A DNA stretch of 64,000 nt from Oscillospiraceae bacterium (GTDB taxonomy: Bacteria; Bacillota; Clostridia; Oscillospirales; Ruminococcaceae): assembly GCA_017427265.1 (NCBI GenBank), contig JAFRTG010000009.1, forward strand, positions 22,882 to 86,881, read 5' to 3'. Shown one piece after another: positions 2,272-41,655 of this stretch. Position numbers and translations under genes: made by a program. The notes below the pieces were generated by a model that did not search any database, was not told the DNA's origin, and worked only from the letters and a program-made list of their open reading frames with translations. Position 1 is the first letter of the stretch. Each line of letters opens with the position of its first letter.

Positions 2272-3657
2272 TCAGGCTGCGTTTTCAGAGCTTTCTTCGG
2301 ATGACTCATCCTCTTCATCCGTTGTGGTAGTCGTAGTCGTTTCTTCCTCTTCTTCCTCGTCAGTTTCCGCAGGCTTGGTGGTCTGTGCCGCACGGATAGC
2401 CTCGATATCAAGTCCCTCCGGATGTACCGGCGGCAGCGTATTGGATTCGAGGAACGCAGTCAGCTCACGGTTGTCCGGATCGAAGATCCGCTCAAGCATT
2501 GCGACATATTCGCGGAACACGACCTTGCCGTTGACAGTCAGAACCTCATTCTCCTCCGGCACGCCCAGCGCCGCAAGATTCTCGTCGCTCATGCGGGAAA
2601 GACGGAGATCGTAGGTCGGATTCAGACCGATCGAAACCATTTTGTCAAAATCAAGCGAGACCTTGAATTCCGGCTCGACCAGCGAAACGCGGAAGAACTT
2701 TGCAAGGCGCGAATCAATCGGATCCTTCTCCGAACCGTAGCCCAGCTTGTGGCGCTGCTTGCGGGTCAGGTCACCGATCTCAAAATCCTCTGCATAACCG
2801 ACATTCAGACCGAGCAGCTTCATCTGCTCCGCATCCAGCGTAAAGGTCGTATTCGGGTTGTGCGTAATCAGCTCTCTGGTAATCTCGGAACGGGTTTGCA
2901 GGCTCCATTCTGCATGGAACTCATCGAGCGGACGCTCATGATAAACCTCACGGGCATAGCCCTTTGCATACCACGTAGAGTGCTTGTAGCCGATGTCCTC
3001 TGTATTCGGCTCAATGGAAACATACGTATTTCCGAGACCCTGATCGAGCACCTGTACGATAGAGTAACGGTAGTTGCCGTGCGGTGTGACGGCGCGCTCC
3101 ACGACGGTTTCCTGCGTAGCAGGCTGCAGGATGCTCTGCACCATCAGAAAGACAAATGCGCCAAGCACGTAGATCATCAGGAAAACCGCGCCGAAGATCG
3201 TCTTGGGTCCTTCGCCCGTGCCGCTCGCCAGATACGTGACTGCGACCATCAGCATCAGCGGAACCAACAGCACCGGATGCTGATAATTGAACAGAATCAC
3301 AGGCAAGTAAAACGGCATGGAGAACATGATGACCAGCCGCGTGATGATCTGCCGCCGCGAGAACAGCATGACCGCACCGAAGAAGATGCAGCAGACCGTC
3401 ACAAGGAAGCCGTAAGTGCCCTTGCTGTCAGCGGGAATATCCAGACGGTAAAACACACTGTAATAGGCCAGCTTCAGAACCCCGCGGAAATAGAGCAAAG
3501 ACAGAAGCGAGACAAGAAATTTTGCAACGCCCAGAAAGAACTGTCCGTTTCTGGTGCGGACAGCGTCTCTCGCGTTTTTCACAAACGCACGGAACTGCTC
3601 CGCGGGCGCTTCCTGTCTGCCGCGTGCAGCGGCAATTTTTCTTACATTTGTACTCAT
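2272..3657 (-). CDS. hypothetical multi-spanning membrane protein with acidic tail
   Basis: A 461-residue protein I do not recognise. The N-terminal half has about five hydrophobic segments (roughly residues 42-180). A soluble region of about 230 residues follows, and the protein ends in a low-complexity tail of Glu, Asp, Thr and Ser. Its ATG overlaps the stop of the upstream helicase gene (ATGA at 3654-3657), so the two are translationally coupled. A tail this acidic and Thr-rich may be extracytoplasmic or bind metal, but that is inference. Confidence 0.8.
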   Translation of the reverse strand: MSTNVRKIAAARGRQEAPAEQFRAFVKNARDAVRTRNGQFFLGVAKFLVSLLSLLYFRGVLKLAYYSVFYRLDIPADSKGTYGFLVTVCCIFFGAVMLFSRRQIITRLVIMFSMPFYLPVILFNYQHPVLLVPLMLMVAVTYLASGTGEGPKTIFGAVFLMIYVLGAFVFLMVQSILQPATQETVVERAVTPHGNYRYSIVQVLDQGLGNTYVSIEPNTEDIGYKHSTWYAKGYAREVYHERPLDEFHAEWSLQTRSEITRELITHNPNTTFTLDAEQMKLLGLNVGYAEDFEIGDLTRKQRHKLGYGSEKDPIDSRLAKFFRVSLVEPEFKVSLDFDKMVSIGLNPTYDLRLSRMSDENLAALGVPEENEVLTVNGKVVFREYVAMLERIFDPDNRELTAFLESNTLPPVHPEGLDIEAIRAAQTTKPAETDEEEEEETTTTTTTDEEDESSEESSENAA

Positions 3658-6032
3658 GATGACACCTTTCGGATTCGGGCATATTTTGCCATGATTTTTT
3701 TTGTGCCGACATTATCAAAGGCGATCTCCAGCATCGAGTCGCCGCCCATCGGCGTAACACCGAGCACGGTACCTTCTCCGTGCACAAAGCTCTTGACGCG
3801 GTCGCCGGGAGCAAACTGATCCGGCATCTCCTGCGGCTTGCTGCGCTGTCTCAGCCACGGATCCGTCTGCACCGGCTGCCTGCCGGGCTTGCGCAGCGTA
3901 TCTGCTTCGCTGCTGCTGCCTGCCTTTTCCAGCACAGCAGGATCCATCTCCCGCAGAAAGCGCGACGTCCCGTTGGAAGCCGTCTGGCCGTAGAGCATCC
4001 GGTAAGCCGCGGTGGTGACGGAAAGCTGCTGCTTGGCGCGCGTGATCGCCACATACGCAAGCCGCCGCTCCTCTTCGATTTCTTCGGGACTGTCGATGCT
4101 CCGTCTGCCGGGGAACACGCCCTCTTCAAGACCCACAAGAAATACGCGCTCAAATTCCAGACCCTTTGCAGCATGAACTGTCATCAGCGTGACAGCATCC
4201 TGCGAATCCTCTGCGCGGTCCTGATCGGTATAGAGGGAAATTTCCTCGAGAAAGCCGTTCAGCGTCGGTTCCTCGCCTTCGTTTTCGGCCTGATTGATGT
4301 AAGAAAGGATGCTGGTTTTCAGCTCGCGGATATTCTCGACGCGCCCCTCGCCCTCTTCTCCGAGCGCCTGCAGCATATCGAGATAGCCGGTCACATCCAG
4401 CAATGTATCGTAAAAATCGTCGAGCGTCTGCTCGGAGGCTGCATCTGCAAGCTCCTCAAACACGGCAGCGGCCTGCCGCAGTGCGGATGCTCTGCGCTGC
4501 AGCACCGGATAGGAATCCGCCGTGCGGAGCACCTCAACCGGCGAGATGCCGAGATCCAGCGCAATCCCGGTAATATCCGAGAGCGTCTGTGCCCCGATGC
4601 CGCGCTTCGGCTCGTTGATGATCCGCGTAAACCGCAGCAGATCGGAGGGATTGTTGACCACGCACATATACGCGATGACATCCTTGATCTCCTTGCGGTC
4701 AAAGAAGCGCAGTCCGCCGAAGATCCGGTACGGGATACCGGCATGTGCAAGCTGGCGCTCCAGCGAATTGGAAAGCGCATGTGTCCGGTAAAGCACGGCA
4801 TAATCGCTGTACTTTCCGCCGTTTGCAACGCCCTTTGCGATCGTCTCCGCAACATAGCGCGCCTCGTCGTTCTGATCGGCAGCGCGGTACCATCTGACCT
4901 TTTCGCCTTCCGCAAGATCGGACCAGAGAGTCTTTTCCTTGCGGCTCTCATTGTGCCGGATGACTGAATTCGCCGCCTGCAGAATCTTCTTTGTGGAGCG
5001 GTAATTCTGCTCCAGCCGGATGACCTTGCAGTCCGGGAACTGCGACTCAAACGACAGAATATTCTCGATCGTCGCGCCGCGGAATTTATAAATGCTCTGA
5101 TCGTCGTCGCCGACGACACAGAGATTGTGATGCTTTTCCGCAAGCAGATGAATCAGCTCATACTGCGCGGGGTTGGTATCCTGATACTCGTCCACGAGCA
5201 GATACCGGCATTTGTTCTGATATTTTTCCAGCACATCCGGATTTTCGCGGAACAGCTGCACCGTCAGTGCGATGATATCGTCAAAATCGACTGCATTGGA
5301 TTCCCGCAGCCGCTGCTGATAAAGCGCATAGATCTGCGCGATCTTGCTGCGCCGGAAGTCGCCTTCCGCTTCCCGCAGCAGATCCTCAGGAGAAAGCAGC
5401 CTGTCCTTTGCACGGCTGATCTCATGTGCGACAGCCTTCGGCGGAAATGCCTTTTCCAGCGAATAGCCCCTGCTGCGCTCCTGCAGCGCGGGATCCTGCA
5501 GACAGGCGCTCACGACGCGCTGACTGTCATCCGCATCATAAATCGTGAAATCACCGGAAAAGCCGAGCCGGTCGATATGCTGCCGGAGGATCCGGACACA
5601 TGCGCTGTGGAATGTCGCCGCCCAGACATCGCCGGCATTTTCGCCGAGCATGGTTTCCAGACGGGCTTTGAGCTCTGCAGCCGCTTTATTCGTAAACGTG
5701 ATCGCAAGGATCCGCCAGCCCGGAACCGGCGCAAAGCCCAGCAGTTCTGTCAGGCGCTGTTCATCCGGCGCCGCCGTTCCCGCAGCCACCTGCTGCAGAT
5801 ACGCTGCATCCTCAGGTGCACAGGGCGGAATCTCTCCGTAATATGCATCCCCGAAGCGCATCATAAACGCGATCCGGTTGACGATCGCGGTCGTCTTGCC
5901 GCTGCCCGCACCTGCCAGAACGCTCACCGGACCGTTCACAGTCCGGACTGCATCCTGCTGCTGCGGATTCAGCCCCTTTGCATCCAGATACCGCGTCAGA
6001 GCGGCCTGTTTGATCTCCGTCATGCTCTGCAT
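3654..6032 (-). CDS. pcrA: ATP-dependent DNA helicase PcrA/UvrD
   Basis: Superfamily 1A 3'-5' helicase of 792 residues, near the usual length for PcrA. Motifs are Walker A GAGSGKTTA (about 41-49), AITFTNKAA (Ia), LLVDEYQDTN (II), GDDDQSIYKFRGA (III), LEQNYRS (IV), TVHAAKGLEF (V) and VAITRAK (VI). The C-terminus carries the short Tudor-like PcrA tail (GDRVKSFVHGEGTVLGV). It acts in nucleotide excision repair, clearance of RecA filaments and plasmid replication. An in-frame stop lies just upstream of the ATG at 6032, which fixes the start despite a distant Shine-Dalgarno. Confidence 0.95.
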   Translation of the reverse strand: MQSMTEIKQAALTRYLDAKGLNPQQQDAVRTVNGPVSVLAGAGSGKTTAIVNRIAFMMRFGDAYYGEIPPCAPEDAAYLQQVAAGTAAPDEQRLTELLGFAPVPGWRILAITFTNKAAAELKARLETMLGENAGDVWAATFHSACVRILRQHIDRLGFSGDFTIYDADDSQRVVSACLQDPALQERSRGYSLEKAFPPKAVAHEISRAKDRLLSPEDLLREAEGDFRRSKIAQIYALYQQRLRESNAVDFDDIIALTVQLFRENPDVLEKYQNKCRYLLVDEYQDTNPAQYELIHLLAEKHHNLCVVGDDDQSIYKFRGATIENILSFESQFPDCKVIRLEQNYRSTKKILQAANSVIRHNESRKEKTLWSDLAEGEKVRWYRAADQNDEARYVAETIAKGVANGGKYSDYAVLYRTHALSNSLERQLAHAGIPYRIFGGLRFFDRKEIKDVIAYMCVVNNPSDLLRFTRIINEPKRGIGAQTLSDITGIALDLGISPVEVLRTADSYPVLQRRASALRQAAAVFEELADAASEQTLDDFYDTLLDVTGYLDMLQALGEEGEGRVENIRELKTSILSYINQAENEGEEPTLNGFLEEISLYTDQDRAEDSQDAVTLMTVHAAKGLEFERVFLVGLEEGVFPGRRSIDSPEEIEEERRLAYVAITRAKQQLSVTTAAYRMLYGQTASNGTSRFLREMDPAVLEKAGSSSEADTLRKPGRQPVQTDPWLRQRSKPQEMPDQFAPGDRVKSFVHGEGTVLGVTPMGGDSMLEIAFDNVGTKKIMAKYARIRKVSS

Positions 6033-6289
6033 GGTTTGCTATGAATCCGTTCCTTTCTGCCAGCTTCCGGCCGGAATCCCCGCAGCAGGCGGAACTGTCG
6101 CTTCTGCAGACGGATATACTTCCGGCAATACCACTTTATTATATCACAAATCTTCCGAATTGAAAAGTCCCCAAAGAAAAATTTTCGATATTTTTCATAT
6201 TTTCCCGCTGCCCGTATCCGATATTCCCGCAATTTGCCGGATTTGCCTGAATGTTTCATGATTCTTTTCTTAATTTTTGCAAATAGGAC

Positions 6290-6318
6290 TTTCTTTTTTT
6301 CCGTTTTTCTTGTATAAT
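6290..6318 (+). promoter_or_regulatory. candidate sigma-A promoter for the AI-2E exporter gene
   Basis: A perfect -10 TATAAT lies at 6313-6318 with a weak -35 (TTTCTT, 6290-6295) 17 bp upstream, in an AT-rich intergenic stretch 57 bp before the gene at 6375. Confidence 0.5.
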
Positions 6319-6374
6319 AGAATAGAATACGAATATTATCTGTTGTTTCAGACGAAAGGAAGCATTCTGATACT

Positions 6375-7733
6375 ATGAAAATACGCTTGAATGAGCATCA
6401 GCAGGGCATCGCACGGATTGCCGTCTGGACGTTTTCCGTCTGCCTGCTGATCGGCATTGCAGTCTGGCGCTTTGATGCGCTCGCAGGAATTTTCCGCAAG
6501 GTGGTTTCCGTGCTCGCACCGGTTCTCGTGGGACTTGCGACTGCTTATCTGCTCAGCCCGCTGCAGAACTGGGCCGAGCGGAAGATCAGCATTCTCACCG
6601 ACCGGAAAAAGCCGCATCCGCGGCTCAGGCGCGGACTATCCGTTGCGGCAACCATGCTTGTGCTGCTGATTGTCATTGTCGGACTCGTTGCAGCCATCGT
6701 TCCGGAACTGATTACGAGCATCAAAAATCTGCTTGTCAATCTGCCGGAATACCTGACCAATATGACCGACTGGATCAATGCGCATATCGCCTCTCTGAAG
6801 GACGATCAGCCGCAGCTCTATTCGCTGTTGGTCTCTGTGTGGGATACTGCACAGAATTCCCTCAACAATTTCGCTGACCAGTTCGAGCCGAAGCTCGACA
6901 GCATTGCAAGCGGCGGCGCCGATCTCATCAGCATTGTCACGACCAGTGCCGTTTCCGTTTTCAAGGGCTTCACCAATTTCCTGCTCGGCCTGATTATCAC
7001 GGTATACCTTCTTTATAACAAGGAGCGCTATCTGGCACAGGCGCGCAAGATTCTCTACGCCACAATGCCGCAGGAGCGTGTTCACGGATTTCTCCGCATC
7101 GGCTCGCATGTCAGCTATACCTTCATGCACTTTTTCTCCGGCAAAACGCTGGATTCCATCATCATCGCACTGCTCTGCTTCATCGGCATGACGATTCTGA
7201 AAATGCCGTATATCACGCTGATTTCGATTCTGGTCGGCATCACGAACATCATTCCGTTCTTCGGCCCGATTATCGGCGCTGTTCCGAGTGCGCTGCTGAT
7301 CCTGCTTTCTGAGCCGCGCAAGGTCATTCCGTTCGTCATCTTTATCCTGGTGCTCCAGCAGTTCGACGGAAACTTCCTCGGCCCGAAAATCCTCGGCGAT
7401 ACGCTCGGCCTGCCAATGTTCTGGATTCTCTTTGCAATCACGATCGGCGGCGGTCTGTTCGGCTTCGCCGGCATGGTCGCATTCGTACCGCTGTTCGCCG
7501 CGGTCTACGCGCTGTTCTCTGACTTTCTCAGCGAGCGCCTGCATAAAAAAGGCCTGCCGCCGGAAACCGAATGCTATATGACAAATGAGATTCTTTTTGC
7601 CGCCGCAAAGCCGCCGGCGGATCCCGAAACAGAGGATCACGCCGGTGATACGGAAACACCGGAACCGGAGTCTTCTGATCCGGAGGCCGCTCCGGAAGCT
7701 GCCGGCACGGATGATGAAGAAGCAGCCGGGTAA
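6375..7733 (+). CDS. AI-2E family transporter (PerM/YtvI-like)
   Basis: A 452-residue membrane protein with the AI-2E transporter family layout: two N-terminal helices, a soluble insert (about 115-190), then five or six C-terminal helices. Conserved blocks are GLIITVYLLYNKERY, FFSGKTLDSIIIALLCFIG and the GITNIIPFFGPIIGAVPSA loop. Some members export autoinducer-2 and others are Na+/H+ antiporters, so the substrate cannot be assigned. The last 60 residues are an acidic, Pro/Glu-rich tail outside the family domain. An AAAGGA site precedes the ATG. Confidence 0.9.
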   Translation: MKIRLNEHQQGIARIAVWTFSVCLLIGIAVWRFDALAGIFRKVVSVLAPVLVGLATAYLLSPLQNWAERKISILTDRKKPHPRLRRGLSVAATMLVLLIVIVGLVAAIVPELITSIKNLLVNLPEYLTNMTDWINAHIASLKDDQPQLYSLLVSVWDTAQNSLNNFADQFEPKLDSIASGGADLISIVTTSAVSVFKGFTNFLLGLIITVYLLYNKERYLAQARKILYATMPQERVHGFLRIGSHVSYTFMHFFSGKTLDSIIIALLCFIGMTILKMPYITLISILVGITNIIPFFGPIIGAVPSALLILLSEPRKVIPFVIFILVLQQFDGNFLGPKILGDTLGLPMFWILFAITIGGGLFGFAGMVAFVPLFAAVYALFSDFLSERLHKKGLPPETECYMTNEILFAAAKPPADPETEDHAGDTETPEPESSDPEAAPEAAGTDDEEAAG

Positions 7734-28624: not shown

Positions 28625-29014
28625 ATGGAACCCAAAAAACTGCCGGATGCCGAATTTGAAATCATGAAGGCAATCTGGCAAATGCAGGAGCCGGTCACAT
28701 CCGGCATGGTCACGGAACAGCTGCGGCTGACGGTTCCCCCAAGAGAATGGAAGCCGCAGACAATCCTGACAATGCTCACCCGTCTGGAGCAGAAAGGCTT
28801 TCTGCGATCGGAAAAGCACGGCAGAGAACGTGCATACTACGTGCTGATTCCGCAGGCAGATTATCTGCAAATCGAAGCAAGCAGCTTCCGGCAGCGGTTT
28901 TCCGGCGGCCGCTTCACAGGACTTGTCAAGGCGCTCTGCGATACCGATGATCTGACCGCAGCAGACATCGAGGATCTGCAGCGCTGGCTCGAAGAAAGGA
29001 GCAAGCAGTCATGA
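28625..29014 (+). CDS. BlaI/MecI/CopY family repressor
   Basis: A 129-residue penicillinase-repressor family winged-helix protein: LPDAEFEIMKAIWQ, VPPREWKPQTILTMLTRLEQKGFLRSEKHGRERAYYVL, and a C-terminal dimerisation helix. It binds the two dyads in its own promoter and is normally cut after the partner sensor is activated. GAAAGGAGGTTTCTGT precedes the ATG. Its stop overlaps the sensor gene start. Confidence 0.93.
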   Translation: MEPKKLPDAEFEIMKAIWQMQEPVTSGMVTEQLRLTVPPREWKPQTILTMLTRLEQKGFLRSEKHGRERAYYVLIPQADYLQIEASSFRQRFSGGRFTGLVKALCDTDDLTAADIEDLQRWLEERSKQS

Positions 29015-30222
29015 TGATGAAAATTGTGCAGCATCTGTATCACGCAATCCTGAATGAAAATTTCCTGTCATATGTGATTCAGAGCATTATAATCTGCTCG
29101 CTGACGATGAGTTTCATCGCGGCATTCGTGCTCCTGATCTCCCGCCATATGAAGAACCGGCAGTCCGCCGCAGGACGCTGCCTGCTCTGGTGGGTAATCG
29201 GTTTTGGCTTCCTGATTCCGTGCAAGCCGCATCCGGCGGGCTCTATCACCGTCATCAGCGCAGACGGACTCCATGATTCACCTACTTTGGCGGATATGAT
29301 CGCATACCGTCTGCACAGCCGCTGCGATCTGAGCAAAGAATTCTTTGTTCTGCTGTTCTGCGTCTGGTTGATCGGTGCCGTCGTATACGGTACTGTGACA
29401 CTGAACCGTCAGGAGCAGTTCAGACGGGACATCAAACGGCTGCACAGACCCGCAGATATGCACACGCAGGCGCTCGCAGACCTGCTCTGCGATACGCTCA
29501 GCATCAGACGGCACATCCCGGTTTATACGGTTCCGGTGATTGAAACGCCCATGCTGAGCGGATTGCTGCGCCCCTGCATTCTGCTGCCGGAGCAGGAATA
29601 TGACAGCGAAGAGCTGCGGCTGATCCTGAAGCATGAGCTCTGCCATTACTGCCGCGACGATCTGCTCTGCAAGCTGCTGTGGATCGGCTGCCGGACAGTT
29701 CACTGGTTCAATCCGTTTCTGCCGCTGCTGATGCAGCAGATGGAGCAGGACTGCGAGCTCGCCTGCGATGAAGCCGTCATGGAGAACGAACCGTCTGATT
29801 CCGCGAACATTTACTGCAAGGCGATTCTGCACACGGCCATGCGCCGCACCGCCGGCAAAAGAACAGATACAGTGCTTGCAACGGGCTTTTCATGCAGCAA
29901 GGAGATTCTGCGTTCCCGTCTGCAGGCAATCCTTTCCGGTGTCCGAAAGCGCTGCTGCCCGGCTGTTGCGGCTGTCGCGCTGATCCTCACGCTCCTGACA
30001 GGCAGCCTTCTCGCATATGAGGTATTCGATACCATGCCGTCGCTTGCGCCGCACAACACGTTCATATCGACCGCCGCTGCGTCCGTACCGGTTCCGGAAA
30101 ACCCTGCCGAACCGCAAACGACGCTGCCGCCTCCTGAATATCTCACGGAGCAGAATATCCCCGCAGTTGAAGAGATGCCGGATGCGGTCCATACGCAGCC
30201 GCAGATCATTCCGCTCCCGTAA
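29011..30222 (+). CDS. BlaR1-type M56 family membrane metalloprotease
   Basis: A 403-residue protein with N-terminal membrane helices, a zinc protease motif HELCH (208-212) and downstream LACDEAVM, and one further helix near residue 325. It then ends in a Pro-rich tail of about 60 residues instead of the penicillin-binding sensor domain of true BlaR1. It presumably cleaves the BlaI-type partner in response to some other envelope signal. No beta-lactamase is in the operon. Confidence 0.88.
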   Translation: MMMKIVQHLYHAILNENFLSYVIQSIIICSLTMSFIAAFVLLISRHMKNRQSAAGRCLLWWVIGFGFLIPCKPHPAGSITVISADGLHDSPTLADMIAYRLHSRCDLSKEFFVLLFCVWLIGAVVYGTVTLNRQEQFRRDIKRLHRPADMHTQALADLLCDTLSIRRHIPVYTVPVIETPMLSGLLRPCILLPEQEYDSEELRLILKHELCHYCRDDLLCKLLWIGCRTVHWFNPFLPLLMQQMEQDCELACDEAVMENEPSDSANIYCKAILHTAMRRTAGKRTDTVLATGFSCSKEILRSRLQAILSGVRKRCCPAVAAVALILTLLTGSLLAYEVFDTMPSLAPHNTFISTAAASVPVPENPAEPQTTLPPPEYLTEQNIPAVEEMPDAVHTQPQIIPLP

Positions 30223-31265: not shown

Positions 31266-31288
31266 TGGTCGAGGTGACAGGACTTGAA
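31266..31288 (-). other. tRNA 3'-end fragment; candidate left attachment site (attL)
   Basis: Read on the minus strand, the 23 bases give TTCAAGTCCTGT (T-loop and T-stem) followed by CACCTCG (acceptor strand), discriminator A and CCA. The 5' part of the tRNA is absent: the T-stem partner and everything upstream are unrelated. This is what remains when an element integrates into a tRNA 3' end. The acceptor sequence fits a tRNA-Pro of CGAGGTG type, by inference. Confidence 0.75.
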
Positions 31289-31386
31289 CAAAATCTACCT
31301 ATCACGAGTCAAACGATCCGCCTATTTGTTACAGTCAAACAGTATTATTTTATCATACATCAAGTGGAATGTCAAGATTATTTCAA

Positions 31387-31439: not shown

Positions 31440-31500
31440 GGTCACTATGCTATAATATATGTGTCCATTGGACTACTATATATAAAAAGGAGCATACAGA

Positions 31501-32115
31501 TGCCGTTAAAACAACCTGAAAACGATCCCACATTCGATGTTCTTGCATACATGCGTTCGCTTTCCCCTATTCCGGACGGAAAGTACGAGTGTGCAACAGT
31601 TGCCGACTGGACTGTCTGCTGGTTACTCCATTATTGTTCCGGAATTAAAGAGTCCACAAAAATGGAGTACGAAAAGATCGTTCAGCAGCATATCAATCGC
31701 GTTCTCGGAAAAGTTCTTCTGACGGAATTATCACACGAGGATGTTCAGCTGTTTATCAACAGCCTGAATATGGGAATCGGTATCGACAATAAGTTAAGCC
31801 CGAAAAGCATTAAAAACATTCATGGGACACTCCATATTTGCCTGAAAGTCGCTGTGGATTTCGGATATATCAATGCGAATCCAGCGGACAAGATCATTCT
31901 GCCGAAGAAAACCACTCCGGAGATTGTTCACCTTGAACCGGAGATTCTGCATGACTTCTTCGGTGCAATCAAGAATCATCCTAAGCGGCTTCTGTTTATT
32001 GTTTCTATTTTTACCGGAATGCGCGAAGGTGAGATCATCGCTTTCACATGGGACTGCGTTCGGTTCGATACCGGCGATATTTACCTCTATCGCCAGCTTT
32101 CTCAAAATGTATATG
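31501..32115 (+). pseudogene. tyrosine site-specific integrase, C-terminal part lost
   Basis: About 205 residues remain: an N-terminal core-binding domain (TKMEYEKIVQQHINRVLG) and the start of the catalytic domain with the first active Arg in FTGMREGEIIAFTWD. The HxxR box and the catalytic Tyr are missing because a group II intron begins near 32116. What follows the intron is not integrase. The protein cannot catalyse integration or excision. AAAAGGAGCATACAG precedes the ATG. Placement next to the tRNA fragment is typical of ICE integrases. Confidence 0.85.
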
Positions 32116-34502
32116 GTTCGTTTTTCTGTATACATCTCATCGGTTGAAATACCATTGAGGACTTTGAAGAACTGTAATTCAAATCAAAGTCAGATTCTCT
32201 CGGTGTACGGCAGCAGCCTAAGGGCTTCACAAATAGGATAGAGATTTAGGAACGTTTGAGAGCCTGTTATCGGAGTTTTACAGAACGCTGAAGGTAACAG
32301 GAAGTCAGCCGTCCCATAGTAGTCTGAGGTTGGGAAAGCCAACCACAAAGAGCTGAAATGCTCTGCGGCGAAGGGGACGAGTCAGATTAATGATAAATTT
32401 CACGAATTGAGAACAAATAACTCCCTGAAATATTGGGTGACGAACTATGGGGTGATACCTTATACATCTAAACGTCATGTTCTCGGACGAAAGCGACCTA
32501 AAAAGATGTCAGGATTATCTTTACCAAAAGAGCCTTGACAATGTCACTTTCACAGGATTGATTGAAGCAATGTGTAACGAGGTTACGATTGTAACAGCAA
32601 TTCATGACATCAAATCCAATCACGGCAGTAAAACGCCGGGAGTGGATGGTAGAAACATCAACCAATATCTGCAAATGGGCAAAGATGAATTAATTGCACT
32701 GATTCAGTCCAGATTTCACAGTTATAAACCCAAACCTGCAAGACGCGAATATATCGCCAAAGCAAACGGAAAATTGCGTCCGTTAGGCATACCGACTATG
32801 CTTGACAGGATCATACAGCAATGTATGAAAATCATACTGGAACCGATATGCGAAGCAAAGTTTTACCCGCACAGCTACGGTTTCAGACCGTACAGGGCGC
32901 AGAAACATGCAATCAGAGACATCGTAAATGTTATCAATGCAACAGGCATCCGGAAAGATAAGGCGGTATGGGCGATTGAGGGCGACATTAAAGGATACTT
33001 TGATACGATCAATCACAGGATTCTGATGCGGAAGCTCTGGAAAATAGGAATCCATGATAAACGGGTTCTGAAAATCATAAGCCAGATGCTGAAAGCGGGA
33101 TATATTGAACACGGATTGTATCATATGACTACAACAGGAACCCCGCAGGGCGGCATATTATCGCCGCTGCTTGCAAATGTATATCTGAATGATTTTGACT
33201 GGTATGTAGGCAGAAAATATCTGGAACCGCATAGAAAATGCCTGCGTAAAAGTAATGACACAAGAAGACTGAAAGCACACGGCGCAACACCAAAGTATAA
33301 TTTCAGATATGCAGATGATTGGGTAATACTGACGACATCAAAGGAAGAAGCCGAAAGGCTGAAACGTGAATTGACCAAATACTTCAAATACCAGCTAAAG
33401 CTTGAATTGTCGCAGGAAAAAACATATGTCACAGACCTGCGCGACAAAGGCATCCGATTTCTCGGATTTGTAGTGAAAGCGGAGCGGAAACGGAAAACAC
33501 CGAATCCGAAATCATGGACTGACAATCTTGTCGGAAAACCGTACCCAGACCTTGAAAGGCTAAAGCGGAAAACAGATAAAATTAAGGAAGCGATCAGGAC
33601 AATCCAAACGTATGAAGCACCTACTTCCAGAGCGGCAAAGATACAGGAAATCAATTCCATGATAATGGGAATTGCACAGTATTTACAGCCGTCTATCTGT
33701 TCGCACGCTTATAACATCATAGACAGGAAAGTCAATAATACTGCATTTGCGGTATGGAAAAGAATGTACCCGCACAGCTACAATCAAATGCAGATTCCGC
33801 TGCAAAACCTTTGTAATCTCCCGCACAGACATCAGGGATATACAAGTACGACATTTGCGATCAGGGTTGAGGGGTTCTGGTTCGGTCTGACCTACGCATT
33901 CATCACGCACAGCAAGTATGAGACCAAGCCTTTCGATCAGAAAACAACACCCTATACCGAAGACGGCAGAAAACGATATTTACAGCAATGTAAGAATAAC
34001 AAGCGCCTACCATGCAACAGACCTTCAATTAACAATGCAATGACGCTTGCTTTTACGCCTTATGTAAAAGGGAAATTCTGGAAGCAGAATTTCGAGTATT
34101 ACATGAATCGGGAGTATGCTTTTAATCGGGACAAAGGCAAATGTAAATGCTGTGGGAAATATTTGAGCGGAGATGCAGACGGACATTGTCATCACGTTGA
34201 CAGAAAATTGCCGCTGGACAGAATCAATAAAGTGCAGAATCTGGCATGGGTCTGTGTTGAATGTCATCATATGATTCATAACAGCCCGATTTCCAATGTT
34301 GATGTTAAGACAGAACGAAAAATCATGAAATATCGTGCAAAACTCAAAAAGTGAAATTTATCGCAGGCTGTATATCGTGAGAGTACAGCTTTGTTGAGAG
34401 AAAAGTAAGTTAATCTGATGGAACGCTGTGTGCGGTGAAAGCTGCATGCACAGTGTGAGGTGGGGGAAAACCCGGAGATTGTCTCAAAGGGTTACCTATC
34501 AC
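32116..34502 (+). mobile_element. group II intron
   Basis: Contains a maturase gene and a clear domain V (about 34421-34460: GTGTGCGGTGAAAGC with GAAA tetraloop, then GCATGCAC), followed by a domain VI-like hairpin and the AY-type 3' end CCTATCAC. The 5' end is placed at GTTCG (32116), a weak match to the GUGYG consensus, so it is approximate by some tens of bases. The flanks are from different genes, so splicing would not restore either. Confidence 0.8.
32477..34354 (+). CDS. ltrA: group II intron reverse transcriptase/maturase with HNH domain
   Basis: A 625-residue intron-encoded protein: RT domain with GVDGRNINQYL, RPLGIPTMLDRIIQQ, GDIKGYFDTINH, GTPQGGILSPLLANVYL and YADDWVI (active site), a maturase region (about 380-470), and a C-terminal HNH endonuclease (CKCCGKY...HCHHVDRK...CVECHHMIH). 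It is apparently intact, so the intron could still move in trans or retrohome. Confidence 0.95.
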   Translation: MFSDESDLKRCQDYLYQKSLDNVTFTGLIEAMCNEVTIVTAIHDIKSNHGSKTPGVDGRNINQYLQMGKDELIALIQSRFHSYKPKPARREYIAKANGKLRPLGIPTMLDRIIQQCMKIILEPICEAKFYPHSYGFRPYRAQKHAIRDIVNVINATGIRKDKAVWAIEGDIKGYFDTINHRILMRKLWKIGIHDKRVLKIISQMLKAGYIEHGLYHMTTTGTPQGGILSPLLANVYLNDFDWYVGRKYLEPHRKCLRKSNDTRRLKAHGATPKYNFRYADDWVILTTSKEEAERLKRELTKYFKYQLKLELSQEKTYVTDLRDKGIRFLGFVVKAERKRKTPNPKSWTDNLVGKPYPDLERLKRKTDKIKEAIRTIQTYEAPTSRAAKIQEINSMIMGIAQYLQPSICSHAYNIIDRKVNNTAFAVWKRMYPHSYNQMQIPLQNLCNLPHRHQGYTSTTFAIRVEGFWFGLTYAFITHSKYETKPFDQKTTPYTEDGRKRYLQQCKNNKRLPCNRPSINNAMTLAFTPYVKGKFWKQNFEYYMNREYAFNRDKGKCKCCGKYLSGDADGHCHHVDRKLPLDRINKVQNLAWVCVECHHMIHNSPISNVDVKTERKIMKYRAKLKK

Positions 34503-36514
34503 CATGCTTCGTCACGACAAAAATGACAAATGTTTCCGGTGTTACGACAAAGGCATCCGGCATTGCAGATGACATGCAGATGAAGTGCGATTACTTCAAC
34601 GAGGAACTCGGTGACGGTCATATTCTTTTTAGTACCGGCACACCGGTATCGAACTCGATGACAGAACTCTATGTCATGACAAGATACCTTCGCTCCGATC
34701 TGCTTGCGATGACCGGCACAGAACGATTTGACGATTGGGCAGCGACATTCGGAAATGTGACGCAAAAGAACAAGATGAATCAAGCAGGACAGATGCAGCT
34801 CAAGACGAGTTTCAGCTCGTTCAAGAATATGCCGGAACTCATGCAGATGTATAAAGAGTTTGCCGATCTGGTATCTGCTGACAAACTTGCTGAAACGACC
34901 AAGCGTCCGGATCTGATTACCGGTCAGCCGCAGATCATCGCTGTGGAAGCATCGCCGGAACAGAAAGCATATGTCGAACAGCTTGCTGAAAGGTCGCTTG
35001 CTTGCCAGAACGGTTTTGTCGATCCGCATACAGACAATCCGTTGAAGATCACACATGAAGCGAGATTGGTCGGACTCGGCAACCGTGCAATCGCAGCATT
35101 GTACCGGCAGAAGGACGGCGAAAAAGGCGAACTCCCTGACGGGTTTATCGAAGATCATGACAGCAAGATTGATGCCTGCCTTGAAAATGTCAAGAAGCTC
35201 TATGACAAGACCGCGCCTGAAAGCGGTGTCCAGATTATCTTCTCGGATATCGCTGTCAATGATGACAAGGGTAACTTCTCCGCTTATAAGTACATGCGTG
35301 ATAAGCTGGTCGCTATGGGTATCCCGGAAAAGGAAATCGTCTTTGCTCCGAAGGCAAGTGCAAGAAACCGTGAAGATATTTTCCGTGACATTAACGAAGG
35401 AAGATACCGCGTGGTAATTGCTTCAACCAGTACGCTCGGCACCGGCGCGAACATTCAGAAGAAACTTTACGCGCTCCACAATTTCGACATTCCGTGGAAG
35501 CCAAGCGACTTTGAACAAAGACAAGGAAGAATCCTGCGGCAAGGCAACAGCTATGATGCAGTTGAGATTTTCAACTACGTTACAAAAGGAACACTTGACA
35601 GCTTCCTCTATCAGATCGTGACAGACAAGGCACGTTATATCGCGCAGCTCTGGAACGATGAATGCCCGGCTCGTATCATGGAAGACTGTGACGAAACTGT
35701 ACTTACTTACGGTCACTTCCAAGCAGTCGCACAGGATAATCCCGATCTGCTGCATCATCTGGAATTGCAGAATAAGGTTGATGAGCTGAAACTCCTGCGC
35801 AGCGAATATCGCAAAGAAACTTCTACGCTTCAGCGCAGAGTGGCGCAGATTCCGGATTTGCTTGAACAGACAAAGCAGAGAATCGAAGCAACGAAAAAGG
35901 ATATTGACAGCGTTTCTGCAATGCGTGACAAGCAGACCGGAAAGATCAGCGAACTGTCCGTCCGGAAAAATGCCGGTCACGGAGAGGTTATACGCGACCA
36001 CGGCGAAATCAATAAATACCTGCTTTCCAAGATTCAGAGCAAGGCAAAGGCTCCGTTCGATGAACAGCCCGGTTTCACGATTGGGAACTTTACTGTTACA
36101 GTTCAGAGCAGTCACAGGTATGCCGGAGAATTTGAATTTGTCATCAAGGGCGAATGGGACAAGGTGTATTATGTGGATGCTGCCAATGACGAAAAAGCTG
36201 ATAACTGCCGCCGCATCTCCAATTTCTTCGATACCGGTTTGGAGAAAGAGTTGGCTAGAGCAGAGCAGAAAATCGAAGACCTTAACATGGAACAGAAGCA
36301 ATCGCAGGAGCGCATCGACAAGCCGTTCCCGGCACAGGACGAGCTGGATGAAGCAGAACAGGAACTCGCAGATCTGGACATTAAGCTGACGCAGAACGGA
36401 CTTTTGACAGATGGCGCAGAATATGCAAACGGCGAGGAAGGCAACGACCAGACTTTCATTCCCGATAATGACGAAGACGAGGAAGATACCTATTTCGCTG
36501 ACCATTCATTATAA
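34503..36514 (+). pseudogene. C-terminal part of a large SNF2-type helicase of the element
   Basis: Reads FVTTKMTNVSGVTTKASG directly after the intron. It contains the second helicase lobe (LFSTGTPVSNSMTELYV, VIASTSTLGTGANIQKKLYAL, DIPWKPSDFEQRQGRILRQG) and a long coiled-coil tail. Full-length homologs on ICEs are very large proteins, often with methyltransferase and helicase lobe 1 upstream; all of that is missing. Residues before about 34503 in this frame are intron sequence, not protein. Without Walker A it should be inactive. Confidence 0.8.
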
Positions 36515-36585: not shown

Positions 36586-37611
36586 ATGACGAACGATGAA
36601 ATTATTGAGAGTGCCAGACGTAAAAATCTGGTCGAGTATTTTCAAGCCTGTGGCTATACGTTACAGAAAAAAGGAACTGAGTTTTATGTCAACGAGATCA
36701 AAGGTCTGACAATCAACCCGAACAGCAATGCATGGTATCACCATTACCAGCGAGCTGGCGGCTACAACGCGATTGATTGTCTTTGCAAAGTATTCGACAT
36801 GGACTTCAAAGAAGCTGTCCATGCTTTGACCGGAGAATATTTGCAGTCCGGCAAGCAGAGTCAGCAGACCGGTTGGTTTAAGAAAAAGAACACACAGGCA
36901 GCTTCGCCGCAGCAAACACCGACAGAACCGGTGAAGCAAAAGAAGGAAATTGAGATGCCGGAGAAAGCAGCAGCGAATGCTCCGCTGTTTGCTTACCTTC
37001 ACAAGACCAGAGGGATTCCGTATGATGTTATAAAAGAGTTCACAGATTCCGGATTGCTCTATCAGACGAATAAAAAATTCGGAAATGGCTTCAAGGCTAA
37101 TGCTGTTTTCGTTCATCGGGATCGTGAAGGCACTCTTGTCGGCGGTGAGCTGCAAGGTCTTGATCCGGTTTATCGGTTCAAGGGAATGGTTGCCGGAACC
37201 GGTGATACCGCTTTTCAGTTTGTGCCTGTTCCTGCAAAGGACGGCAAACTGAAACGGGCATATATCTTTGAGAGTTCAATCGACCTGATGAGTTTTTATA
37301 CCATGTTCCGTAAGGAACTGAAACTTGAAGGGACAGCATTTATTTCTCTCGCCGGACTGAAACCGACTGTACCAAAGCATCTGCAAGCTGAGGGAGTCGA
37401 AATCATTTCCTGTGTTGACAATGACACAGCCGGTCAGAATTTTGAGGTCGATAACGGATTCAGGAGATCAGATTTCGTGAAGGAGCATCTCGACGTAAAA
37501 GGTTTGAAAGACTGGAACGATCTTCTTCGGTATCCTGATGTTAAGCCTGAACCGGCTCGGACTATTACACCTGTCAATGAACAATATGCAGTAAGGAGTA
37601 TGATGCACTGA
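36586..37611 (+). CDS. DUF3991/Toprim primase-like protein
   Basis: A 341-residue protein. The N-terminus (NLVEYFQACGYTLQKKGTEFYV...WYHHYQRAGGYNAIDCLCKVF) is the CHC2-like fold of element primases, with the zinc Cys residues not conserved. The DUF3991 segment (YLHKTRGIPYDVIKEFTDSGLLYQ) and Toprim region (FESSIDLMSFYTMF, ISCVDNDTAGQNFE with DND) follow. It probably primes replication of transferred single strands. TCAAAAAGGAGGATAGAAA precedes the ATG. Confidence 0.85.
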   Translation: MTNDEIIESARRKNLVEYFQACGYTLQKKGTEFYVNEIKGLTINPNSNAWYHHYQRAGGYNAIDCLCKVFDMDFKEAVHALTGEYLQSGKQSQQTGWFKKKNTQAASPQQTPTEPVKQKKEIEMPEKAAANAPLFAYLHKTRGIPYDVIKEFTDSGLLYQTNKKFGNGFKANAVFVHRDREGTLVGGELQGLDPVYRFKGMVAGTGDTAFQFVPVPAKDGKLKRAYIFESSIDLMSFYTMFRKELKLEGTAFISLAGLKPTVPKHLQAEGVEIISCVDNDTAGQNFEVDNGFRRSDFVKEHLDVKGLKDWNDLLRYPDVKPEPARTITPVNEQYAVRSMMH

Positions 37612-38183: not shown

Positions 38184-38232
38184 AAAACGAACAAAACCGA
38201 CTGCCAAACTGAAAAAAGAAAGAGGAACGACT

Positions 38233-39081
38233 ATGCAGAAATTCAGCGTTTCATTCTCACTCGGCAATGGTGCAGAGATTCATGGCGGAGACACTGACCA
38301 TTATTTCAATGTATATCTTGCCGAAAAAATCAAGAAAAACCAGCATGATCCTTGTATTGTGTTCATTATGAAGAACATAAAAGATACTTATCACCAGTTG
38401 TTTGATGAAGCACTTGAAAAATACAATTCCACGAAAAAACCATGTCGCAAAATTAAGGATTACTATGAGCATATCTCGTCCGGAAATCGTGAATCGCCGT
38501 TCTATGAAGCAATCGTTCAGTTTGGTGACAGTATCAATGCGCCTGTCGGCTCAGAGCGCGGAAAGATCGCAAAGCAGTTGTTGACAGAGTATATGAAAGG
38601 CTTTCAAGAAAGAAATCCTAATTTGCATGTATTTTACGCTGTGCTTCATATGGACGGGGCAAGCCCACGTTTAAGAATTGATTTCGTTCCATTCTATAGC
38701 AAAAATCATAAAAATGGATTGGTAAAAGGTGTTTCGATGCGAGCTGCATTGGAGGAAATGGGATACATTTCAAAAGGATACAGAGAGAATCATCTATCAC
38801 TTTGGGAACAGGCGGAGAGAAAAGTTATGAATCAGCTTCTCAAAGTGCATGGATATACCCGTGAGGACAAGCATGTGAAACACAAGCACATGAGTGTATA
38901 TGAATACAAAGAAATGCTGCGCAGAGATGCTATGATGAAAAATGCGAGAGCGAAAATCTTTCAGGAAGGAGATCTGCAAGCGATTAAGGAATTGCAGATC
39001 AAGTTGGCATCAGCTGAACAACAAGTTGAGCAGCAAGAAGCTGAAAGAAAAGAAAGGTGGAAAAAACATGGAACAGTTTAG
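38233..39081 (+). CDS. MobV-type relaxase homolog lacking catalytic His residues
   Basis: A 282-residue relative of the next gene, truncated to the relaxase domain. The MobV motif HxDExxPHxH reads HMDGASPRLR (139-148): the Glu is Gly and both metal-binding His are Arg. It should not nick DNA but could still bind oriT or dimerise with the active copy. ATG 38233 follows AGAGGAACGACT; the in-frame extension to 37942 runs through the oriT repeats and is rejected. Overlaps the next gene by 14 bp. Confidence 0.82.
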   Translation: MQKFSVSFSLGNGAEIHGGDTDHYFNVYLAEKIKKNQHDPCIVFIMKNIKDTYHQLFDEALEKYNSTKKPCRKIKDYYEHISSGNRESPFYEAIVQFGDSINAPVGSERGKIAKQLLTEYMKGFQERNPNLHVFYAVLHMDGASPRLRIDFVPFYSKNHKNGLVKGVSMRAALEEMGYISKGYRENHLSLWEQAERKVMNQLLKVHGYTREDKHVKHKHMSVYEYKEMLRRDAMMKNARAKIFQEGDLQAIKELQIKLASAEQQVEQQEAERKERWKKHGTV

Positions 39082-40936
39082 TATCAGTTTTGCTCTAGGG
39101 AAAGGTAGCGCACCTCATGGTGGAAATATTGAACACAACAATAGAGAGTTTCTCGCTAGCAACGTGAATGAGATTAAATCGCCATTGAATGTTGTTTTCA
39201 CAAGAACAGATATTGAGGATGCTTACCATCAACTGTTTGATGATGCACTTGAAAAATATAACGAAAAACAAAATAGACCATGCAGACGGATTCAGAATTA
39301 CTATCAACACGTAGCGTCTGGAAATCGTGAATCGCCGTTCTATGAAGCAATCGTTCAGTTTGGTGACAGTATCAATGCTCCGGTTGGATCTGAACGCGGC
39401 AAAATTGCCAAAGATATGCTGATAGAATTTATGAAAGGCTTTCAAGAAAGAAATCCCAATTTACATGTCTTCAACGCTACACTCCATCTGGATGAAGCAA
39501 GTCCGCATCTTCATATCGACTTTGTGCCTTATTATACAAAAGGACGAAAGAACGGATTAGAAAAGGGTGTGTCAATGAAAGCTGCATTAGAAGAAATGGG
39601 CTTCCGTGCGCAAGGAAAAATGAAAAATCAATTAGTCCTTTGGGTTCAGTCAGAGAAAAAAGTAATGGATCAGATTCTTAATTCGCATGGATATACCCGT
39701 GAGGACAAGCATGTGAAACACAAGCACATGAGCGTAGCCGACTACAAGACAATGGTAAACAGTCAAAAGACGATGCAAAGAATCGCAGCAAGACTTGGAC
39801 TGTCCGGAGAAGAACAGCGTTCACGGCAAGAGCTATATGCAAAACTGGCAGCATCCGAGAAGAAGGTTGAACAGTTGGAAGCTGAAAGAAAATCTCCTTA
39901 CGCTTGTTTTTATTACTCATCGCCGGACAAACAGATTTTCGTTCAGGACGTAATGCGGCAAGAGGGCATCCACTTCCGAGAAACAGACAACGGTTTTGAA
40001 GTGCAGGAATGCTTCGCCAGACGGATCAGGGAAATCGAGAAGACATATCAGGCTCCGGCGTCCACGATCCGCGACAGGCTTCGGGATGATATTGATAGTT
40101 TCCTCTATCAGTCAAAGTCATTTGACGAGTTCATCCAGAAGATGAAAGCCGCAAACTACGAAGTCAAACAAGGAAAATATATTTCTGTCAAGCCGCCTTA
40201 CGGTCAAAGGTTCACCCGATTGAAGTCGCTTGGAGAACACTATGACGAGTTTTCGCTAAAAAAGCGAATGAAGATCAAGGCGCGTTTTGAAGCACGCCTT
40301 GATAAACGCATCAAAGAACTGGAAGCTGAAAAGGCTACGAACCTTTGCGTTCTGCAAGAGGTTCGGCGGTATATTGTTGTAGTCGAAAAGGGCGATCTTC
40401 CAATCAGAAAGAAAGATAAAACGCAGCCATTCAGTTGGAGCAACGATCCGGAGATTGACAAGCTGCTTGCGTTAAACAACATGCTGAATCAAGGGATGAC
40501 CGTAGAAACGATCCGTAAAAAGGCAGAAACGCTTGAAGCAACCGCACAGACAAAAGGTGCTGAACTGGAACAAGCTGAGAACGATCTGCGTCAGTATCTG
40601 GAGATGAAAGAGAAAATCGAAATCGTCTTTGAAGGCAAAGCATCCGATGCATTTTCGCTGGAACAAGCAAAAGCTGCCGTCCGGCAATATCCGGATATTA
40701 ACGCATCAAACTATAGGAATATTGATAAGGTTGTCGATCCGGCGAAGGTGAAAGTTCAGGAACTTGCAGAGGAACATCGAGCTATCCGTTCAGAATTGAA
40801 AACCGTTACAGAAGCATTAAGCGTTATCGAAAAAGCAACCAATCACACCTATGTCGATCATTTGCTTGCAGATCAGCGCCGCATTGCCGCGTCGGAAGTG
40901 CTTATGAATGGTATCTATTCAGGAGAGTCGTTATGA
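39068..40936 (+). CDS. MobV-type relaxase (plasmid recombination/mobilization protein)
   Basis: A 622-residue protein. The N-terminal 270 residues form the Mob_Pre relaxase domain with intact motif HLDEASPHLH (140-149) and IDFVPYY. The remainder is a long coiled-coil region with several helices that probably contacts the transfer machinery. It should nick at the oriT just upstream and lead the strand into the recipient. AAAGGTGGAAAAAAC precedes the ATG. Two DNA blocks are identical to the upstream paralog. Confidence 0.88.
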   Translation: MEQFSISFALGKGSAPHGGNIEHNNREFLASNVNEIKSPLNVVFTRTDIEDAYHQLFDDALEKYNEKQNRPCRRIQNYYQHVASGNRESPFYEAIVQFGDSINAPVGSERGKIAKDMLIEFMKGFQERNPNLHVFNATLHLDEASPHLHIDFVPYYTKGRKNGLEKGVSMKAALEEMGFRAQGKMKNQLVLWVQSEKKVMDQILNSHGYTREDKHVKHKHMSVADYKTMVNSQKTMQRIAARLGLSGEEQRSRQELYAKLAASEKKVEQLEAERKSPYACFYYSSPDKQIFVQDVMRQEGIHFRETDNGFEVQECFARRIREIEKTYQAPASTIRDRLRDDIDSFLYQSKSFDEFIQKMKAANYEVKQGKYISVKPPYGQRFTRLKSLGEHYDEFSLKKRMKIKARFEARLDKRIKELEAEKATNLCVLQEVRRYIVVVEKGDLPIRKKDKTQPFSWSNDPEIDKLLALNNMLNQGMTVETIRKKAETLEATAQTKGAELEQAENDLRQYLEMKEKIEIVFEGKASDAFSLEQAKAAVRQYPDINASNYRNIDKVVDPAKVKVQELAEEHRAIRSELKTVTEALSVIEKATNHTYVDHLLADQRRIAASEVLMNGIYSGESL

Positions 40937-41655
40937 AGAAAAAATGCTCTGCTTCTGCTCTGAAATTACTGGCAATCATCGCTATGACGGTCGATCATAC
41001 CGCGCTGATGTTCGTTCCGCAGGAGAGTTTGCTCTATTATCTTATGCGACTTTTCGGTCGGCTGACCGCGCCGATCATGGCATTTTTCATTGCCGAGGGC
41101 TTTCAGTACACGCGCAGCCGGAAGAAGTATCTGCTTCGTCTTGCTGCCTTCGGATTGATCTCACAGCCGTTTTACGTTGCAATGATCTTCGGAAAAATAC
41201 CGGACAGTACGTTGAATCTGATCGGAAATTGGAACGTCATGGTATCACTTGCACTCGCACTTTTCTGTCTGATCGTACTGGAATCCAGACTGCCGGAAAC
41301 ACCGCGCCTGATTCTGGTCGCTGTTCTGATTTCACTCGGACACTTTGCCGATTGGTCGCTCATGATTCCGGTTTGGACGGTAATCTTTTATGTCTTCCGA
41401 AACGATTTCCGGAAGAAAGCAATTATATTTGCTGTTGCATGTGTTGTGCTGCAAACTGTAATCTTCGCAAAAAGTTATGATAGTTTCCTGATGTTCACAT
41501 ATCAGTACGGTACGCTTCTCGCGCTGATTCCGATCTCGCTATACAACGGCGAGCGCGGCTGCGTCCGGCATAAGAATCTGCAACGCTGGTTCTTTTATGT
41601 CTACTATCCGGCGCACATGCTGGTGCTGCTCGTAATCAGGGAAAAACTCATCTAA
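40933..41655 (+). CDS. TraX family membrane protein
   Basis: A 240-residue protein with about eight helices and the TraX signature SASALKLLAIIAMTVDHTALMF followed by RLFGRLTAPIMAFFIAEGFQYT. TraX in F plasmid acetylates pilin; in Firmicutes elements its role is unclear. The ATG overlaps the relaxase stop, so it belongs to the mobilization operon. Confidence 0.88.
   Translation: MKKKCSASALKLLAIIAMTVDHTALMFVPQESLLYYLMRLFGRLTAPIMAFFIAEGFQYTRSRKKYLLRLAAFGLISQPFYVAMIFGKIPDSTLNLIGNWNVMVSLALALFCLIVLESRLPETPRLILVAVLISLGHFADWSLMIPVWTVIFYVFRNDFRKKAIIFAVACVVLQTVIFAKSYDSFLMFTYQYGTLLALIPISLYNGERGCVRHKNLQRWFFYVYYPAHMLVLLVIREKLI

Follow-up and report, generated by a model that had tools for sequence, protein, structure and literature searches.

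Decayed ICE of an Oscillospiraceae bacterium with a 5'-truncated group II intron

How do the front of a tyrosine integrase gene and the back half of an SNF2-type helicase gene come to lie on the two sides of a single group II intron? The locus is part of the window (the whole stretch of 64,000 nt analysed here), which corresponds to contig C5:22882-86881 in the 3.82-Mb draft genome (49 contigs) of a Ruminococcus-like gut bacterium, C5 ending at window 64000. Read on the + strand, it carries in order the integrase N-terminal part, the intron, the helicase C-terminal half, a DUF3991/Toprim_2 protein (36586..37611), two adjoining Mob_Pre-type relaxase frames (38215-39081 and 39065-40936, together 38215..40936) and TraX (40933..41655). 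An earlier note on this DNA had described the first three as adjoining and had explained them by recombination between two copies of the intron, one in each gene, with loss of everything between. The adjacency was borne out by Pfam, Rfam and TIGR04416 matches together with the limits of homology to relatives. The explanation fared differently: as argued below, the arrangement looks like the ordinary decay of a mobile element and not like a swap between two introns.

The integrase remnant (31500..32101, +) comprises about 201 codons and matches Pfam Phage_int_SAM_3 at 5.7e-9. Its frame retains ..TGMREGE.. and ends after ..YLYRQLS, whereas an intact relative runs on with ..LRFHDLRHTYAVL..LGH.., so the later catalytic residues have been lost from the window. 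DNA homology to integrase relatives ends at 32101 in L079, L081, L084 and L085, which amount to three independent cases because L084 and L085 come from identical stretches. A fifth relative, L089, matches at 92% and is itself cut at 31572, while the best DNA match over the full stretch in the genus is about 75%. Within the same genome, contig C29 carries an integrase that is 44% identical in amino acids to that of the window, with no DNA match between the two; like the integrases of G301 and G310 it extends past the window break point and contains no intron. The missing C-terminal part has no match above 43% identity in its own assembly, that best match being the one on C29, and neither the viral contigs nor the family sample held a closer integrase by which a microhomology at the seam could be resolved.

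On the other side of the seam, intron sequence occupies 32106..34505 (+). Domains V and VI were recognized by Rfam RF00029 at 34421-34505 with 53.1 bits (cut-off 40), and the intact 625-aa frame at 32477..34354 encodes a reverse transcriptase/maturase that matches TIGR04416 with 319.7 bits (cut-off 300); its C-terminal part is HNH-like in our reading. The closest relative, L042 (identical to G320:C3), shares 96% of the residues of this protein and 94-99% of the nucleotides in the intron parts compared. In L042 the intron is complete, with 2768 nt (L042:132-2899), and sits between the helicase codons DESHAYKN and FVSTKM: it begins with GTGCGAAACG (GTGCG), one nucleotide past the DESHAYKN codons, and on its 3' side the exon resumes with GC-TTC-GTT. 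From the intron 5' end to the start of the reading frame there are 739 nt in L042 and from the seam to the frame 371 nt in the window, hence about 368 nt of the intron are missing. The missing part comprises the 5' splice site and the 5' part of domain I, which places the truncation inside that domain: the 5' end motif GUGYG, present in relatives mostly as GTGCG, is absent at the window seam, and conserved intron sequence (GCAGCATCGTAAGAG-like) extends upstream of window 32106 in all 32 relatives aligned (32 of the 35 found, L055, L062 and L070 being left out of the alignment). Judged by these alignments, the window intron is a truncated member of the group II introns. The first structure retained is a predicted hairpin (32107..32135, +) that starts directly at the seam and exposes CGTTTTT in its loop. 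This is the complement of AAAAACG, with which the 5' exon of L042 ends, and we read the loop as a putative EBS1. The 3' splice site (34505^34506) preserves the helicase frame, as it does in L042 and in intron-less relatives. Without its 5' splice site the intron should neither splice nor move as a unit. The genome contains a single copy of it, and of the missing 5' part no trace was found elsewhere in that genome. Changes in the intron protein were polarised to look for relaxed selection, and gave 12 nonsynonymous and 8 synonymous changes on the window branch vs 7 and 12 on that of L042 (Fisher p = 0.20; 66/105 unpolarised).

The two sets of homology limits nearly meet. Closer intron relatives match from 32104 (L043-L045, L052, L065, L072) or from 32106 (L042), the alignments of more distant relatives set in deeper inside the intron, and 2-4 nt within 32102..32105 match neither integrase nor intron relatives. 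The alignments place the join at about 32101-32106, inside domain I and not at an intron end, with a possible microhomology of up to about 6 nt (AAAATG). The idea that the intron forms the seam between the two genes holds in so far as it adjoins both, but its 5' join falls within domain I. Neither the 29 other genomes of the genus nor a family sample of 396 genomes, apart from the one analysed here, gave a match spanning the seam.

The 3' flank is the 3' exon of the intron. Helicase_C is found in 34460-36514, the helicase half itself (34506..36514, +) starts at the codon following a DEAH-x-x-K-N site, and the alignments of intron-less relatives begin at 34506 or within a few bases downstream of it. 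A scan for the intron protein, built on six peptide patterns, yielded at least 35 relatives, the nearest named ones labelled Ruminococcus. The helicase site is occupied in 27 of the 35, a call made for 22 through a clear 5' exon and for L055, L057, L058, L063 and L073 through an alignment break at the same residue or the 3' exon. Six lie in other genes, VirB4-type (L066-L070) or VirD4-type (L064), and two (L062, L075) at host sites without an identified gene; a nested intron, considered for L064, was rejected in favour of an ordinary insertion in the VirD4-type gene. The positions of the relatives show the conserved DEAH-box site of the helicase to be the homing target of this family. Fourteen helicase loci were inspected, the weaker helicase matches being outside this count: 13 cover the site (L087 does not reach it), and 12 of these have no intron (11 loci of the genus and L014 from another genus), which leaves L042 as the only occupied one. 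Identity between the window and L042 is 97.0%, 94.4% and 98.7% in three intron parts vs 60.7% in the adjoining helicase exon, which indicates that the intron moved between diverged helicase genes. No intron relative was found in the viral contigs; phage and plasmid collections gave partial matches, mostly to intron parts as judged by position, and the best phage-labelled record, which carries no annotation, was covered to 41% at 68.6% identity.

Two further features of the relatives may be recorded here. About 50 extra nt follow domain VI before the exon resumes in 11 of the 21 relatives (out of 35) whose 3' end could be located (L048 8031, L064 8016, L065 8026, L066 4638, L067 4973, L068 5920, L069 8018, L070 8018, L072 8027, L074 8019 and L075 3785). 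The addition forms a hairpin in all seven relatives folded, it moves the TK codon from +14 to +64 in the four helicase-site cases, and it presumably resembles the 3' extension of Bacillus cereus introns. In L044, a Ruminococcus albus element, a second and different intron-type reverse transcriptase (2813-4588, 30% identical) lies in the helicase gene, upstream of the first and at another break.

What has been lost between integrase and helicase can be estimated from a paralogous element on C29. On one strand this contig carries an integrase, ParA, ParB, a 774-aa protein, a VirD4-type coupling protein, a TrbL-like protein, a VirB4-type ATPase, the helicase, a toprim protein, Mob and TraX, in a gene order shared with the window element, and its helicase frame runs uninterrupted for 3843 aa. 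The names integrase, ParA, ParB, VirD4, VirB4 and helicase are backed by Pfam, and TrbL-like is our own reading of a protein with no Pfam hit. The C29 counterparts of the two breaks lie at 97759 (integrase) and 59859 (start of the helicase exon), 37.9 kb apart, so that we estimate a deletion of about 38 kb, with the proviso that the two elements have diverged; the undeleted parental form of the window element was not found, and both the size and the exact breakpoints rest on relatives. Six C29 proteins tested from between the breaks (ParA, ParB, VirD4, VirB4, TrbL-like and the 774-aa protein) have no match in the window, and the C29 helicase matches the window only from the homing site on. A search of the assembly with the 1043 helicase residues that surround and precede the site hit C29 only; ParA/ParB DNA was likewise confined to C29 apart from short repeat matches, and VirB4 occurs on C29 and, 64% identical, on C48. 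These comparisons support the suggestion, already made in the earlier note, of a large deletion to which the C-terminal part of the integrase, the N-terminal part of the helicase and the genes for conjugation were lost. The C48 copy belongs to a second type IV secretion remnant (C48:72591-84807; L100, L101), which reaches to about 1.3 kb from the contig end and holds a VirB4 with one TGA, a TrbL-like protein, VirD4 and a homologue of the 774-aa protein. These are homologues from a similar element, and translocation of the missing middle to C48 was considered, but it finds no support: the helicase search matched only C29, and the integrase C-part has no match on C48 as far as that contig reaches before it runs off its end.

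The outer limits of the element can also be proposed. Its attL core, 24 nt at 31266..31289 (+), repeats without mismatch the 3' end of tRNA-Pro(CGG), which is intact at C48:6773-6849 and lies on the minus strand of that contig. G317 has a match to the left flank of the window (28859-30021) at a distance of about 340 nt from this tRNA. To the left of the tRNA, C48 from about 6142 to 6773 has counterparts of 80-87% similarity in G309, G313 and G310, which carry this integrase or part of it; a 50-nt piece of it also matches in G295, a genome without an integrase match. It is thus probable that the element extends from window 31266 across the end of C5 at 64000 as far as C48:6773 and measures at least 39.5 kb, with the right end of C5 and the left end of C48 as probable neighbours across it. 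A 22-nt palindrome (AAAAGTTGCTACTAGTAGCAAC-like, up to 3 mismatches) occurs at 14 distinct places, four in the window, all from 44450 rightwards (44450, 52521, 62753, 62868), two on C48 left of the tRNA and eight on C29; the places outside the window are L040 4221, 8622, 11601, 14306 and 14665, L022 18019 (= L039 8019), L038 8574 and 9278, and L118 5206 and 6601. It is absent from four other C5/C48 stretches of 69.8 kb in total, two of them holding the C48 secretion remnant. This distribution fits the proposed boundary without proving it. The palindromes, some of which fall within genes and are translated in frame as KVDTSSN (helicase, VirD4, ParB and a 159-aa protein), could be candidate sites for the ParB of the element or for a regulator, or an intragenic repeat.

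Taken as a whole, the locus is quite probably the product of homing into the helicase followed by an illegitimate deletion that joined the integrase to the intron, with a decayed ICE at tRNA-Pro as the result. A group II intron would first have homed into the large helicase gene at the conserved DEAH-box site. A single illegitimate deletion of about 38 kb would then have fused the integrase, at codon ~201, with domain I at a point immediately 5' of the EBS1-like hairpin, removing the catalytic part of the integrase, ParA/ParB, the type IV secretion genes, the N-terminal part of the helicase and 368 nt from the intron 5' end. The junction is there to be read in the DNA, and from it we infer the order of events, homing and then deletion, and the mechanism. 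Deletions of this kind do occur in the family without introns: in G307 and G309, which are identical over 3700 nt and count as one event, the integrase breaks off after about codon 235 and passes directly into the tail of a Mob gene, without an intron between them. In G313 only 24 integrase codons are left, again with no intron at the junction. Loci of such decayed relatives are L105 (about 5700-6000), L106 and L107 (6766-6838). What counts against this best explanation is that a random deletion does not account for the coincidence of intron and seam.

That coincidence is where other readings have to be weighed. The exchange between an intron copy in the integrase gene and another in the helicase gene belongs to a class of events that has been discussed as a possible cause of deletions in the account of PMC5894124. 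It predicts a complete, hybrid intron with its 5' splice site at the first gene; instead 368 nt are missing relative to L042, and the integrase side has no intron 5' end, so that the copy in the integrase would already have had to be truncated at its 5' end. Intron-bearing integrase genes, sought among relatives, did not appear: none of the 35 intron loci gave a match to any of three integrase queries, and the integrases of G301, G310 and C29 that extend past the break are free of it. With a single intron copy in the genome and no remains of the lost 5' part, we regard this proposal of the earlier note as highly improbable. Joining of unrelated reads during assembly, a concern in any draft of 49 contigs, is also very unlikely here, since there is no second intron copy to mislead the assembler, among the 20 direct-repeat families listed (of 31) there is none that ties the integrase flank to the intron where the two meet, only diverged copies of the missing pieces occur in the assembly, and the gene order across the seam agrees with an element of the same type. 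That the deletion came first and the intron was inserted later at its junction has nothing for it beyond position and is hardly to be entertained, for the 3' side falls exactly on the helicase homing site, whereas the 5' flank lies off the splice site and the intron is truncated.

The alternative that deserves more attention couples the deletion to homing itself: intron RNA ligated to the helicase 3' exon would be copied into cDNA that stops about 368 nt short, and its end would be joined to the integrase gene by end joining or template switching, with loss of the intervening DNA. The 3' junction does coincide precisely with the homing site, and truncation is confined to the 5' junction, as one would expect if reverse transcription had stopped early. 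Spread of the intron was recent, given its 94-99% identity to L042 vs 60.7% in the adjoining exon and its absence from 11 of the 12 other site-covering helicase loci of the genus and from one locus of another genus. LINE-1 elements make deletions in animals, an event with which this reading can be compared. Error-prone 5' joining of cDNA from linear intron RNA has been described in Drosophila, as reported in PMC3280974. Yet an ordinary later deletion yields the same sequence, the divergence of about 5% from L042 leaves time between homing and deletion, and the integrase of G307/G309 was deleted without an intron; a literature search found no bacterial precedent for deletion by faulty retrohoming. 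We consider this course of events unlikely, if conceivable, and just as doubtful the claim that would follow from it, namely that a bacterial group II intron made a deletion of about 38 kb while inserting, its cDNA end joined to a gene tens of kb away. If true, deletion during retrohoming would add a new form to the damage that introns do in bacteria. Homing followed by a separate deletion remains our preferred reading, and it makes the locus a worked case of ICE decay in which the breakpoint can be placed within a few bases; it also illustrates that recombination between intron copies need not be invoked wherever an intron marks a seam.

We conclude that the window contains a decayed ICE and, within it, a truncated group II intron; the literature search returned no mention of the window locus or of a helicase-site intron family. 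Compared with mobile group II introns (TIGR04416, RF00029), the window intron has an intact 625-aa protein, domains V/VI, an exact 3' splice site in a conserved target and homing to the helicase site; it differs in having lost its first 368 nt and the 5' splice site, and in having an unrelated gene as its 5' neighbour. Retrohoming of linear intron RNA with an end-joined 5' junction likewise combines an exact 3' with an aberrant 5' junction, but as described in PMC3280974 it was seen in Drosophila and without a 38-kb deletion, and for the window it is a candidate mechanism only. Among the fragmented RmInt1-like introns of rhizobia, FRE652, as presented in PMC5894124, is similar in that an intron fragment persists in accessory DNA; it has lost its 3' part, while the window intron has lost its 5' part and kept its protein intact. 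The element as a whole resembles a CIME, described in PMC5704250 as a cis-mobilizable element, that is, a decayed ICE. Within the window the functional integrase and the transfer genes are lost and the left att is apparently kept, its core matching the intact tRNA-Pro on C48; unlike a CIME, the window element still has Mob-type relaxase frames and TraX, and its right att would lie on another contig to which it is probably continuous.
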